The translations under genes and the position numbers were made by a program. From assembly GCA_016742095.1 (NCBI GenBank), contig JACVCJ010000001.1, positions 62,001 to 126,000 on the forward strand: DNA of 64,000 bases, read 5' to 3'. Within the stretch, counting starts at the first letter, position 1. Each line of letters opens with the position of its first letter. The notes beneath the pieces were generated by a model. That model was not told the DNA's origin. It did no database searches and saw nothing but the letters and a program-made list of their open reading frames with translations. Origin of the DNA: Bacteroidia bacterium. Lineage in GTDB: Bacteria; Bacteroidota; Bacteroidia; CAIKAF01. Shown in pieces: positions 2,110 to 7,023 of this stretch.

Positions 2110-3669
2110 ATGATGAATGAACTCATAGTAGAGGTAAAGGGTAAGGATGTATATTTGGCTGTTTTGCAAGATAAAAACTTAGTTGAGTTCAACCACGAAC
2201 TGGCCGACAGCGCTTATACCGTAGGCGACCTGTACCTGGCCAGGGTATCGCGTGTGATGCCTAACCTGAACGCGGCATTTATCGATGTAGGATACGAAAA
2301 GGATGCTTTTCTGCACTACTTTGACCTGGGTCCGCAAATACGCTCGCTGAACAAGTTCATTTCTGAACTGCAGTCGGGAAAGGTGAAAACAGGTAACCTG
2401 ATGTACCTGAAACCGGAACCCGATATTGTGAAGGAGGGTAAAATTGTGGATGTGATCAAACCCGGACAGAAGGTCCTGGTGAAGATCGCCAAAGAGCCCA
2501 TTTCCCAGAAAGGGCCGCGTCTCTCTTGCGAAATCTCCATTCCCGGACGATATCTTGTACTGGCTCCCTTCGGAGCACGTGTTTCCGTGTCTTCAAAAAT
2601 AAAAGACAGCGAAGAACGTAAACGGCTCAAGGATATCATTGAACCGGTCTTACCCAAAAATTTCGGATGCATCATCCGTACGGCCGCAAAAGGGGTAGAG
2701 GCCAGAGAACTGCAGCGCGACCTGGAAGAACAGCTCGTGCGCTGGAATTCGGCCGTCGATATGATGAAAGTGGGGCATACCCCCGTAAAGGTCCTCGGCG
2801 AACTGAAACGTACCTCCGCCATCCTGCGCGACCTTATGAACGAAAGTTTCTCGTTCGACAGCGTGGTCGTGAACAGCAAAGCCCTGCACGACGAACTGCG
2901 CGACTTTGTTGCCAATACCCTACCCGGTAAAGAAAAAATTATTAAGTTCTACGAAGGCAAAGCGGATATTTTCGATGCCCATAAAGTGACCAAACAGGTA
3001 AAAGCCCTGTTCGGCCGACAGGTGGGACTGCCCAGCGGAGGATACCTGATCATTGAGCATACCGAAGCCCTGCACGTGATCGATGTAAACAGCGGCAATA
3101 TGCTTAAGAAAGGCAACGACCAGGAAACGAACGCCATCGAGGCCAACCTGGAAGCTGCCGCCGAAATTGCCCGTCAACTACGCCTGCGTGATATGGGCGG
3201 GATCATTGTGGTTGACTTTATCGATATGCATAAGGCCGAAAACAAACAGAAACTGTACGAGTTCCTGAAAACGGCCATGAAGAACGACCGGGCCAAGCAT
3301 AATGTACTGCCGCCTTCCAAGATCGGCCTGGTACAGATCACCCGCGAACGCGTGCGCCCCGTGATCGATATCGAGACCAAAGAGGTGTGCCCCACCTGCC
3401 ACGGCACCGGTAAAGCCGAAGCGCCCCTGCTCATCGTAGACGATATGGAAAACGAGGTACGCTACCTCATGACCGAACGCAAGGGAAGTCCCATTACCAT
3501 CGAATGTCACCCGTTTGTACACGCATTCCTCACCAAAGGCTGGATATTTTCCCTGGCCAACAAATGGAAACGTAAGTACAAGGGCAGGATCGAGGTAAAA
3601 TCGAACATGTCGCTGCCTTTAATGGAATACCGTTACAAGGATAAGGACGGCGTTGAAATTAATGTATGA
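2110..3669 (+). CDS. rng: Ribonuclease G/E family protein
   Basis: Single-strand endoribonuclease of the RNase E/G family, acting in 16S rRNA 5' maturation and mRNA decay. At 519 residues it has RNase G size and lacks the long C-terminal scaffold of RNase E. An S1-like domain lies near residues 35-130 (VGDLYLARVSRVMPNLNAAFIDVGYEK). The catalytic DNase I-like region includes LHVIDVNSGN and GIIVVDFIDM, carrying the metal-binding Asp residues. The Zn-link motif is present as CPTCHGTGK. Translation may start at either of the two consecutive Met codons (2110 or 2113). The gene ends at a strong terminator. Confidence 0.96.
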   Translation: MMNELIVEVKGKDVYLAVLQDKNLVEFNHELADSAYTVGDLYLARVSRVMPNLNAAFIDVGYEKDAFLHYFDLGPQIRSLNKFISELQSGKVKTGNLMYLKPEPDIVKEGKIVDVIKPGQKVLVKIAKEPISQKGPRLSCEISIPGRYLVLAPFGARVSVSSKIKDSEERKRLKDIIEPVLPKNFGCIIRTAAKGVEARELQRDLEEQLVRWNSAVDMMKVGHTPVKVLGELKRTSAILRDLMNESFSFDSVVVNSKALHDELRDFVANTLPGKEKIIKFYEGKADIFDAHKVTKQVKALFGRQVGLPSGGYLIIEHTEALHVIDVNSGNMLKKGNDQETNAIEANLEAAAEIARQLRLRDMGGIIVVDFIDMHKAENKQKLYEFLKTAMKNDRAKHNVLPPSKIGLVQITRERVRPVIDIETKEVCPTCHGTGKAEAPLLIVDDMENEVRYLMTERKGSPITIECHPFVHAFLTKGWIFSLANKWKRKYKGRIEVKSNMSLPLMEYRYKDKDGVEINV

Positions 3670-3698
3670 TCCCGCGCTAAGGCCGGGATAACGGTATA

Positions 3699-3746
3699 GA
3701 AAAGCTGTTTCGTCTCGCTTGAAGCGGGAGGGAACAGCTTTTTTTG
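3699..3746 (+). terminator. Rho-independent terminator after rng
   Basis: AAAAGCTGTT (3700-3709) pairs with AACAGCTTTT (3733-3742), with a second inner stem (CTCGCTT/AAGCGGGAG), and the hairpin is followed by a run of T. Its inner core resembles the hairpins at 35022-35058 and 58679-58710. Confidence 0.85.
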
Positions 3747-3759
3747 TTTCCGATGGGAA

Positions 3760-3771
3760 GTTTGTATACAA
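3760..3771. repeat. Left copy of 12-bp repeat flanking the A+T-rich island
   Basis: GTTTGTATACAA, with a palindromic core TTGTATACAA. An identical copy in the same orientation lies at 5591-5602, on the other side of the AAA-TOPRIM gene. It may be an island boundary repeat or an operator. The rest of 3747-3991 is A+T-rich and holds no supported gene. Confidence 0.5.
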
Positions 3772-3991
3772 AAACGAACTTGCGACGAAGAAAAATTGGA
3801 ATGAAAAGGGTATTAATAACGTACACAATGTTTTACAGTCGGATAAATGCGATAGCTTTGGGTTATGGGTGAGAAAAAAGTATATGACAGTGTAATGGCC
3901 GCTAGGTATTTGCTGGTAAAGGGTATTTTATAGAGCAGGTGAGAGTTATTAAACCATGGAGTGCCCAAGTTTGCTCTTTGCCAAACTACCT

Positions 3992-5518
3992 TTAGTTGTT
4001 TGTAGAAAGTTCATAAAATTTGTCTATTATACGTTTAATGATGGCATTAGTTCTGTCAATTACAATCTGTGCTTCATCAGAGTTTAATTCTTTCCACCTT
4101 AAGAATAGATTTGAAGCATCCTGTCCCCAAAATTCAATTTCAGAATTAAACCATCTTTTCATTGCTTCTCTATCGTCTGAAACACCGTTGATGTTGTTAA
4201 GAAAAACACGTTTCGTATATTGTGCCGGGTTGTTCCAAAAGGGATCATTTTCAGGAAGGCCCTGAAGGAACTCTTTGACCACATTTTCTGGCCTTAAAGT
4301 TCCTGGTAAAAACACAACATTATTTGTATCTGTTTGATTAAAAGTAGATTTGAAGTCACCGTCAAGAACAACAACACTCCTAAAAAACTCTTCAAATCCT
4401 TTGTCGATTAAAGTTTTATATGTTCCACAACTTATACTTAGGTTTTTATATGATTTTTCACAACCGAAATCAATTTCATTTATTATGTTTTTATAAAAGC
4501 AAGACGCTTCATAATCTTCAAAATAAAAATTAACCTTTTTAGGTCTTATACTTCTGACTGCTTCGTGATTTAGATCAGCAAGTAAATTTTCTAGCTCTGA
4601 AAAACCTTGTTGCACCTTCACAGAACCTAATGAATTAGACAAGCTTACAAAATTAGTTGAATGCTTAAATTGCGCTGCTTTTTTTGAAGATAAAAAGTTA
4701 AGTAAATCAGAAGAGTGAGTAGTAAACACAATTTGTAAATTTACTTCTCTACCAATTCGCAGCATTACTTTCATCAGGTTCTTTTGAGCCGCGGGGTATA
4801 AAGTAGCATCCAACTCATCTATAAGCAAAAGGCCACCGTCATAATTTAGATTATCTTGCTTTAGTTTTTTAAATGAGAGCAAGGCAAGGATAATATGGCC
4901 AATATTGTCTTGCCCTGCTGAGATCCCATGAGAATCAAAATTTGCTGTTGTCGGAGAAAAGGAATTTTTATTACTTGATTTCGTATGAACTGGATTTATT
5001 GTTTCAGTTGTAGAAAAAACTTCATTGTATATTTCGTTATACTCAACTGCTAACTCAGGAGTTAAAGTTTGAAGCCCAAGCTTAATGTTTCGTTCATTTT
5101 CTTGCGCTAAGGGTAAAAGTCTTTTTAAACTTAAGAAAATTACTGGCTTTGATACTTTACCGCCACCTCTAATTCTACCTCCAACATCTATACGATGCCT
5201 AATTCTTCCGTTTTCAGTTACTATTCTCGATGCTGCATTTTTATTTGTGCCATTTTCAAAAAACAATTGATATGAATAAGTTTCTGTGACATCGTGTGTA
5301 TCTGAAAAACGAAATACAGCGGAATATTTTGTTTCAAAACGCTCATTAAAAAGATTGTAATAAGCATTGCTATACTTAAAAATGTGTCCAATGATACCAA
5401 GCATTGATGTTTTTCCAGTACCATTGCCACCTGCGATAACTGTTAAAATAGAACCAAAGTCGAAATCCAAATTGCTCAAATGTCGAAAATTTGTTATTTT
5501 AAGTCTTTTGATTTTCAT
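3992..5518 (-). CDS. AAA-family ATPase with C-terminal TOPRIM-like domain (OLD-family-like), putative defence protein
   Basis: A 508-residue ABC/SMC-type ATPase. Walker A GGNGTGKTS is at residues 30-38, an ABC-signature-like SAGQDNIG at 200-207, Walker B LLLIDELDATLYP at 230-242, and a switch His in FTTHSS at 265-270. The C-terminal part has hallmarks of a divergent TOPRIM nuclease fold: a strand ending in an acidic pair (FYFEDYEA, 331-338) and VVVLDGD (382-388), followed by LPGTLRPENVV, common in AAA-TOPRIM proteins. This architecture is known from OLD nucleases and defence ATPases such as GajA and PARIS (AriA plus a DUF4435 TOPRIM). No GajB, AriB or other partner is adjacent, so it is solitary here. 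The gene is visibly more A+T-rich than both neighbours, with TTT, AAA and ATT codons common, which suggests horizontal acquisition. The exact family is uncertain. Confidence 0.85.
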   Translation of the reverse strand: MKIKRLKITNFRHLSNLDFDFGSILTVIAGGNGTGKTSMLGIIGHIFKYSNAYYNLFNERFETKYSAVFRFSDTHDVTETYSYQLFFENGTNKNAASRIVTENGRIRHRIDVGGRIRGGGKVSKPVIFLSLKRLLPLAQENERNIKLGLQTLTPELAVEYNEIYNEVFSTTETINPVHTKSSNKNSFSPTTANFDSHGISAGQDNIGHIILALLSFKKLKQDNLNYDGGLLLIDELDATLYPAAQKNLMKVMLRIGREVNLQIVFTTHSSDLLNFLSSKKAAQFKHSTNFVSLSNSLGSVKVQQGFSELENLLADLNHEAVRSIRPKKVNFYFEDYEASCFYKNIINEIDFGCEKSYKNLSISCGTYKTLIDKGFEEFFRSVVVLDGDFKSTFNQTDTNNVVFLPGTLRPENVVKEFLQGLPENDPFWNNPAQYTKRVFLNNINGVSDDREAMKRWFNSEIEFWGQDASNLFLRWKELNSDEAQIVIDRTNAIIKRIIDKFYELSTNN

Positions 5519-5571
5519 TCTTTATATAATTGTGGGCGTTTCCATAGATAGTAAAACTAGCTGTTAATTTA

Positions 5572-5602
5572 TAAATATATGGCAATAACTGTTTGTATAC
5601 AA
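5572..5602 (-). promoter_or_regulatory. Candidate promoter of the AAA-TOPRIM gene, overlapping the right 12-bp repeat
   Basis: Reading the minus strand, TTG (5602-5600) is followed after a 20-base spacer by TATATTTA (5579-5572), one base from the TAnnTTTG consensus. The -33 element falls inside the palindromic repeat at 5591-5602, so a protein binding that palindrome could block transcription. The remainder of 5519-5740 is A+T-rich with no gene seen. Confidence 0.4.
5591..5602. repeat. Right copy of 12-bp repeat flanking the A+T-rich island
   Basis: GTTTGTATACAA, identical to 3760-3771 and in the same orientation, with a palindromic core TTGTATACAA. The two copies bracket about 1.8 kb holding only the AAA-TOPRIM gene. 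A tandem pair is compatible with a target-site or attachment-site duplication, but the copy here also overlaps a candidate -33 element. Confidence 0.5.
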
Positions 5603-5740
5603 TAGTGTCGAAAAATATTTTTCTATTACTTCGGTCACAAGATTGTCACTTAATATTTTCAAATTGTCTCTGTTGCGTACCCTGTTTTTTGTTTGAGTAT
5701 AAAAGTTAGCCTGAGGAGTGTTGCTAAGACGAGGTTGCTG

Positions 5741-6964
5741 TTATTTTTTCTGCATTTCCAGGGCCTGTTCGATCCAGTCGCGGTCGTTGCGCAGGTAAAT
5801 GTCCGGGGAAATACCTTTTCCTTCGTATGGCAGGTATTTTTTCCAGTTGTCCTTCATATCTGAAAAGTATATCCGAAAACGCCCGGACGGACTTGCCAGA
5901 TCTTCGGGATAGTTTCGCCCGTAGGTGATCATGCCCCGCGTATTGTCGCCCAGTAAGCTCACATTTTTACGGTCTTTGAGTTTAACGGTAAACTGCTCGG
6001 CATTGCTTACCGTACCAAAATTGATAAGTACGGACATATTGCCTTTGTATCTTTTCAGCAGTTTGTAAAACTGCAGCGAGGTACGGTCACCGCCTCCGGA
6101 ATTGTTCCGCAGGTCTACGATCAGGTTCGGGGTCTGCAGACTGTCTTTGATCCGGGAATAAAAAGCCGTGGCCTCCCTGATGTTCTCATTGGCAGAGCTG
6201 AAACTTCCGAGCTTCAGGTACGAAGTTTGAGCGTTCAGCGTAACGAAATGGTATTTTTTCTCCGGGAATGGGGCCCGGTAAAAGTCAGGACTGTCGTTTT
6301 TCTTTTTCCAGGGAAGGGACTTAAATTCTCCGGCAACAAAATGATCGGTCGCTGAAAAAAGCCTTTTGTGAACCAGGTGCCCCATGAACAGCCGGAAGCG
6401 TTTGTTTTCCAGCGGTAGCAGGTACAGTATGGTCTCGCCTCTCTGCCAGGAAGGAATACGGCTTTCTAAAATAATGCCTTCGTACATCTTTCCGGCATTC
6501 CGGATGCCGATCTTAAAAAACGTCTCGTAATAGTAAATACCTTCGTGATCGTTCCGGTCTTTTTTTTCCAGTTCGGTTTCCAGGCTGTCGAGGTCGGCTG
6601 TACTGTGCGGATAAAAGTTGTACTCCGGGGCGTTGCGGATCTTTTCCAGGAATTCCGGCTTTTGCAGATCTGTATACGAAAAATGCTCCGTATTGCCGTA
6701 AATGTCATTATGAAGATCACTCAGTGCATCCACCAGTTCGTACAGCCGAAAATAACTTTCGAAGAGATCAGGCTGCCGGCCGGCGTACAGGGCTTTTAGT
6801 GCCAGGTATTTCGCATCGGCCTTTTCCCGGTTGTATTTCTGGGTTTTATAGGAGCTGCCCTGCTTCAGCCGGGTATATACGAAATCCAGGTCGTCGCTGA
6901 ACGCATTTTGTGTATATGCATGCAGGCTGATGCTTGTGAGGAGCAGGAAAAAGACAATCTTCAT
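5741..6964 (-). CDS. Secreted S41-family peptidase-like protein
   Basis: From the Met at 6964 the protein starts with a clear signal peptide (MKIVFFLLLTSISLHAYTQ). An upstream in-frame ATG (6991) adds nine residues but touches the preceding terminator, so 6964 is preferred. The C-terminal half has S41 peptidase hallmarks: SYLKLGSF, LIVDLRNNSGGGD, and the nucleophile strand GTVSNAEQFTVKLK with Ser near residue 320. The following LLGDNTRGMITYG occupies the position of VGExTxG. The Lys of the CtpA Ser-Lys dyad (GKG) is not seen there, so it resembles the IRBP/tricorn-type S41 subgroup. No PDZ domain is obvious. Substrate unknown; periplasmic or surface location is likely. Confidence 0.8.
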   Translation of the reverse strand: MKIVFFLLLTSISLHAYTQNAFSDDLDFVYTRLKQGSSYKTQKYNREKADAKYLALKALYAGRQPDLFESYFRLYELVDALSDLHNDIYGNTEHFSYTDLQKPEFLEKIRNAPEYNFYPHSTADLDSLETELEKKDRNDHEGIYYYETFFKIGIRNAGKMYEGIILESRIPSWQRGETILYLLPLENKRFRLFMGHLVHKRLFSATDHFVAGEFKSLPWKKKNDSPDFYRAPFPEKKYHFVTLNAQTSYLKLGSFSSANENIREATAFYSRIKDSLQTPNLIVDLRNNSGGGDRTSLQFYKLLKRYKGNMSVLINFGTVSNAEQFTVKLKDRKNVSLLGDNTRGMITYGRNYPEDLASPSGRFRIYFSDMKDNWKKYLPYEGKGISPDIYLRNDRDWIEQALEMQKK

Positions 6965-6992
6965 ACGCAATGATACAGTTTTTCTGTGCATT

Positions 6993-7023
6993 TAAAAAGG
7001 CGAAAGTTTCCTCCCGCCTTTTC
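6993..7023 (-). terminator. Terminator downstream of the ColD-like gene
   Basis: On the minus strand AAAAGGC pairs with GCCTTTTT around a loop of about 13 bases, ending in T residues just upstream of the S41 gene. It separates the ColD-like gene from the S41 peptidase gene. Confidence 0.6.

Follow-up and report, generated by a model that had tools for sequence, protein, structure and literature searches.

Class 1 OLD proteins, such as those of Thermus scotoductus (6p74) and phage P2 (Old), carry an ABC ATPase followed by a TOPRIM domain in one chain that is encoded by a single gene. The review of the OLD classes (PMC10568477) knows of no cellular class 1 OLD that confers broad defence by itself, and its scheme does not include a methylase-linked class. 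The same domain types have been found beside methylation-based defence in a 2026 survey of BREX (PMC12839542), where OLD-ABC genes linked to TOPRIM were proposed to act as backup suicide effectors of that system; for R-M-like systems anchored by an ABC ATPase, the survey refers to Krishnan et al. 2020. ATPase-TOPRIM proteins also occur in retron I-B (class 3 OLD), together with a reverse transcriptase and an ncRNA, and PARIS likewise combines an OLD-type ATPase with a TOPRIM nuclease. In PrrC/PrrI, an ABC-ATPase nuclease gene is located within an hsdMSR locus, the nuclease being in this case of the HEPN type (PMC3710099). The same 2013 survey of HEPN proteins described a HEPN family whose operon also contains genes for a ParB nuclease and a DNA methylase. 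PD-λ-5, finally, came out of an experimental selection as a broad anti-phage system; its discoverers called it a compact prophage RM+Abi system (Vassallo 2022, PMC9519451), and its PADLOC model contains no ATPase-TOPRIM gene. Here we describe a gene of the OLD type in a Bacteroidia bacterium, within a window of 64,000 nucleotides taken from contig JACVCJ010000001.1, whose relatives are mostly found next to DNA methylases.

The gene (3992-5518, minus strand) is an intact ORF of 508 amino acids plus stop, predicted to encode an OLD-like ABC-ATPase/TOPRIM nuclease, and it is the sole content of an A+T-rich island (3747-5740) delimited by the composition profile, by ORF statistics and by flanks unlike those of its relatives. 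The two flanking genes, rng (ending at 3669) and an S41 peptidase gene (ending at 5741), are convergent, with nothing else between them. GC content across 3750-5750 is 31-36%, against about 47-55% outside, and of the 47 ORFs in the window that reach 150 aa the nuclease gene is the lowest in both GC (32.8%, versus 53.5±2.4% for the other 46) and GC3 (24.2%, versus 64.1±5.3%), about 7-9 SD off. A preliminary description of this DNA had claimed precisely such a one-gene island, and the composition and ORF data agree with it. The island starts directly past a terminator-like inverted repeat (3700-3742, plus strand; 21 nt, 86% complementary in the repeat search), which seems to close the rng unit and is not among the matches of a consensus terminator scan. 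The repeat search also returned two copies of a 12-nt repeat with a palindromic core, GTTTGTATACAA (3760-3771 and 5591-5602), that bracket the nuclease gene at a level near chance, and their placement may be fortuitous.

The distribution of the gene, together with its odd composition, makes horizontal acquisition probable, as had been suggested before. It is missing from all 15 other same-family genomes searched, where the lone weak match (in G012) spans 77 residues interrupted by stops, and in a scan of the phylum only 7 of 396 genomes, the window's own included, match at E<=1e-15. Copies with 72-74% identity and a GC content of 33-35% are found instead in other Bacteroidota families (L034 in genome G369, L045 and L046), and the flanks of the 74%-identical relatives are unrelated to those of the window and do not align with them. 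The family of the host shares a conserved mutY-HU-TPR-rng block, with synteny stopping right after rng; since the S41/degT side was not found in the family genomes either, no clean empty site can be demonstrated. A mobile boundary shared with the relatives was ruled out, given the unalignable flanks of the 74%-identical copies and the near-chance level of the 12-nt repeats. Some copies of the gene decay, as indicated by a stop at codon 7 in the 72%-identical homologue of L046 (7001-8527) and by a broken homologue in genome G431 (L036).

Modelling and conserved motifs indicate that the encoded protein is an OLD-type ABC ATPase joined to a TOPRIM domain, and a predicted nuclease. Conservation across 154 sequences defines an ABC-type ATPase half (residues about 1-272; 4702-5518, minus strand) with an intact Walker A (GGNGTGKTS, 30-38; K36 in 151 sequences), signature (SAGQDN, 200-205; S200, G202 and D204 in all 154), Walker B (LLLIDE, 230-235; D234 in 154 and E235 in 153) and H-loop (H268 in 154). 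Pfam matches (AAA_15, 5e-24; AAA_21, 7e-13) are restricted to this half, and no Pfam TOPRIM family, OLD-TOPRIM included, matches the protein. The C-terminal half (residues 320-508; 3995-4561, minus strand) was nevertheless modelled by AlphaFold2 as a TOPRIM-order fold followed by a helical tail. Its strands and helices run β-α-β-α-β-β-α, with E334-D335 past strand 1 and D386-G-D388 past strand 3, and the key acidic residues are as conserved as those of the ATPase (E334 in 153 of 154 sequences, D386 and D388 in 152). The full-length model, built with 50 aligned sequences after leaving out one row from a phage collection, has a pLDDT of 89.5, and the 189 C-terminal residues modelled alone reach a pLDDT of 92.8 and a pTM of 0.87. 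Foldseek placed the full model closest to the OLD of T. scotoductus (6p74, E 4.5e-13), followed by Gabija GajA, with full-chain TM-scores of only about 0.3 because the orientation of the domains differs. For the isolated C-terminus, the best PDB matches were the OLD C-terminal regions 6nk8 and 6njw, which are weak ones (E 0.02-0.03, probability 0.72-0.84), and DUF4435 gave no convincing match. The AAA ATPase-TOPRIM (OLD-like) assignment of the preliminary description thus holds, and so do the residue numbers that it gave. Apart from this, the tail (residues 454-508; 3995-4160, minus strand) resembles the RecA C-terminal domain in a profile comparison, with E 2e-6 on tandem RecA fusions and E 0.8 against a single RecA, a possible hint of DNA binding; a fold search gave no confirmation of the likeness.

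The window protein matches over its full length (residues 2-497 of 508, E 1.3e-98) the phage protein family PHROG 3940, whose function is listed as unknown. A first viral scan with the single window protein as query gave no match, whereas the harvest of the whole family from genomes, viral contigs, phages, plasmids and whole genomes yielded 174 loci, a count that includes near-copies, which span Bacteroidota, Pseudomonadota, Bacillota, Elusimicrobia, Nitrospirae, one methanogen and many prophages. A D12 adenine methylase is present in 138 of these 174 loci (Pfam PF02086 confirmed on examples). This linkage is local: within two genes of the nuclease, D12 genes fill 122 of 587 slots, against 2 of 1398 slots at a distance of four genes or more. 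Moreover, the pairwise divergences of nuclease and methylase are correlated (Mantel r=0.70, a value reached by 0 of 2000 permutations), a correlation that drops to 0.36 in distant pairs. The D12 partner corresponds to the PADLOC model PD-Lambda-5_B (E 2e-118), and a ParB-like partner to PD-Lambda-5_A (E 9e-164 in L090), with strong matches in L054, L090, L100 and L182 and weak ones in L035 and L125. Relatives occur in phages and prophages, and in E. coli they adjoin an integrase. Three-gene loci with a PD-Lambda-5_A-like gene, PD-Lambda-5_B and the ATPase-TOPRIM gene were noted in L035, L038, L054, L090, L125 and L182. Pairs of ATPase-TOPRIM and D12 genes lie right by the integrase in prophages and phages of E. 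coli and Citrobacter (L220, 5055-7768; L027, L028), and 85 of 5,426 complete E. coli genomes carry most of the nuclease-methylase pair. More distant relatives, with about 23% identity, are found on many F-type plasmids (L029 from Klebsiella, L032 from E. coli, conjugative), followed by a convergent gene of 289 aa with no Pfam match. We found no experiment in the literature on any member of this nuclease family.

A different picture emerges within the branch to which the window gene belongs. A maximum-likelihood tree built from 153 sequences, with SH-aLRT support from a quick search, puts the gene in a supported clade (98) whose 23 rows all lack a D12 partner. Among the 25 loci of this clade, 11 contain R-M genes: hsdM, hsdS or hsdR genes lie around or beside four members (L048, L049, L052, L062), and a C5 methylase accompanies seven others (L045, L047, L059, L060, L064, L066, L096), five of them with an NgoPII restriction enzyme. 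For a further member, L053, an EcoRI-type methylase and a GmrSD protein are encoded no more than five genes away. These neighbours were found with small purpose-built models and can be under-counted, and several loci break off at contig ends, which hides partners; seven loci whose flanks are long on either side (L034, L046, L050, L057, L069, L087, L119) show no R-M or defence gene by the models used. A conserved partner within the subclade of the window was also sought, and none is common to the window, L034 and L046. Since D12 methylases, type I systems, C5 R-M systems or no partner at all are met across the relatives, the linkage of the PHROG 3940 nuclease is to DNA methylation systems of any kind, and the partner is exchanged from one to another or, in the genome of the window, missing. 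The preliminary description was therefore right that a partner is usual, although this partner is a DNA methyltransferase or R-M locus and not AriB or GajB; in the same way, the gene is solitary in the window genome and a few relatives, but not in a family that is normally methylase-linked.

At the window locus, where rng and the S41 peptidase are the only neighbours, there is no adjacent methylase or other recognisable defence gene, in line with the partnerless gene of the preliminary description, so that the contextual argument for a defence role is borrowed from the relatives. No gene for a D12, N6_Mtase (HsdM) or N6_N4 methylase exists in the host genome. Its single C5 methylase is encoded on another contig (C53), in a second defence locus of low GC content, 38-39% (L217, 7547-10308), together with a Vsr-like gene and a putative restriction enzyme of 390 aa; the other orphan genome, G369, has a C5 methylase 41% identical to this one. 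That the C53 methylase serves the window nuclease as a partner in trans is suggestive at most. Several known systems can be discarded for the window locus itself. It is not a type II R-M system, there being no cognate methyltransferase adjoining the nuclease; nor a PD-λ-5 system, of which both A and B genes are lacking and D12 is absent genome-wide, as opposed to relatives such as L090, where the system is found. Gabija is rejected by the absence of a neighbouring helicase. The longest PADLOC match is that to the retron I-B ATPase-TOPRIM PDLC02914 (residues 1-405, E 8e-19), but the genome has no reverse transcriptase (PF00078) and a Rfam search of window positions 3000-7000 returned no match, which eliminates a retron.

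The explanation that we favour, with somewhat better than even confidence, is that of an acquired OLD-type nuclease from a family acting as the effector arm of methyltransferase-centred phage-defence modules, of which the window copy has been orphaned and works alone or in trans. Since its relatives in bacteria, archaea and phages lie almost always beside DNA-methylating genes, the window gene is probably a phage-defence effector that lost its usual partner or never had it. The effector family would serve D12 methylases with or without a ParB-like gene (the PD-λ-5 type), type I R-M operons and C5-methylase/NgoPII R-M systems. In the mechanism we propose, an ABC ATPase, probably dimeric, would restrain a TOPRIM two-metal nuclease until an infection that blocks or bypasses modification or restriction, or that yields abnormal DNA, changes the state of the ATPase; the released TOPRIM domain would then cut nucleic acid, DNA being likelier than tRNA, and either the infected cell or the phage would be stopped. 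With no methylase next to it, the window copy would act solo or in trans with an R-M system elsewhere in the genome. For this protein we infer nuclease activity, trigger, substrate and defence role alike.

That nuclease and D12 methylase are paired so tightly, one to one, and diverge in a correlated way, and that many of these pairs have no other annotated restriction enzyme between them, could also mean that the D12-linked AAA-TOPRIM protein is itself a restriction enzyme from which the methylase protects self DNA, the window copy being an orphan R gene whose sites are absent or modified in the host. We consider this unlikely: operons of the window's clade already contain HsdR or NgoPII, and the orphan copies stay intact in a genome devoid of D12, N6_Mtase and N6_N4 methylases, observations which favour a guard or backup effector, or a class 1 OLD, over a restriction enzyme. 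The layout of L048, L052 and L062, with the gene within an hsdMSR locus, recalls PrrC, from which the family differs in having a TOPRIM instead of a HEPN nuclease, and its control by R-M is conjectural; it recalls too the OLD-ABC effectors of BREX, although the partners are here D12, type I or C5 R-M genes, or none. A little less probable still is a plain class 1 OLD similar to P2 Old, that is, a stand-alone exonuclease or nickase tied to RecBCD-type end processing, for which the methylase link would be irrelevant in this genome. The window copy is a single gene, as class 1 is defined (PMC10568477), and its best structural match is the class 1 TsOLD (6p74), but most of the family is not single-gene, the two proteins are about 15% identical in the structural alignment, no Pfam OLD-TOPRIM match exists and the nearest relatives are methylase-linked, which the described class 1 genes are not. 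Very improbable, finally, is the single-gene PARIS, an AriA-AriB fusion cleaving tRNA upon sensing anti-restriction proteins, that had been put forward as a fused PARIS-like effector: the ATPase + TOPRIM layout is common to both, a shared trigger is plausible and AriA gives the best PADLOC score (1.2e-23; AriAB, 3e-19), but AriA and AriAB align to the ATPase half only, the C-terminus is not a DUF4435-type TOPRIM (1 of 50 members at E=0.015), separate or fused, and neither AriA nor AriB ranks among the best structural matches, so that with OLD and GajA as the closest folds the protein is of the OLD type and the fusion fails.

We commit ourselves to a guard or backup effector, which would be released when R-M is blocked, in the manner of PrrC and PARIS, as the probable role of the family. 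A bolder version, possible but more doubtful than the explanation favoured above, would see in it an OLD class of its own, so far unrecognised, of portable nucleases that guard R-M and have repeatedly switched between methylation systems (D12/PD-λ-5, type I, C5/NgoPII); in the branch of the window they could also function without a linked methylase, by sensing the loss either of modification or of a distant R-M system. What is new in this analysis is the methylase linkage of the unnamed PHROG 3940 family, although the exact family may already be listed in the ABC-ATPase survey of Krishnan et al. 2020. By inference, the ParB/methylase operon described with a HEPN family (PMC3710099) would be the same module with a different effector, which suggests PD-λ-5-type ParB/methylase modules with exchangeable effectors, HEPN in that case and ATPase-TOPRIM here. 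Of the OLD classes, that of the single-gene proteins is the least understood, and the PHROG 3940 nuclease offers a natural comparison, as it is found paired with D12 methylases, embedded in type I operons, next to C5 R-M genes and by itself. The version carried by E. coli prophages makes the question of whether it is an R-M guard or a restriction enzyme directly testable in laboratory strains.
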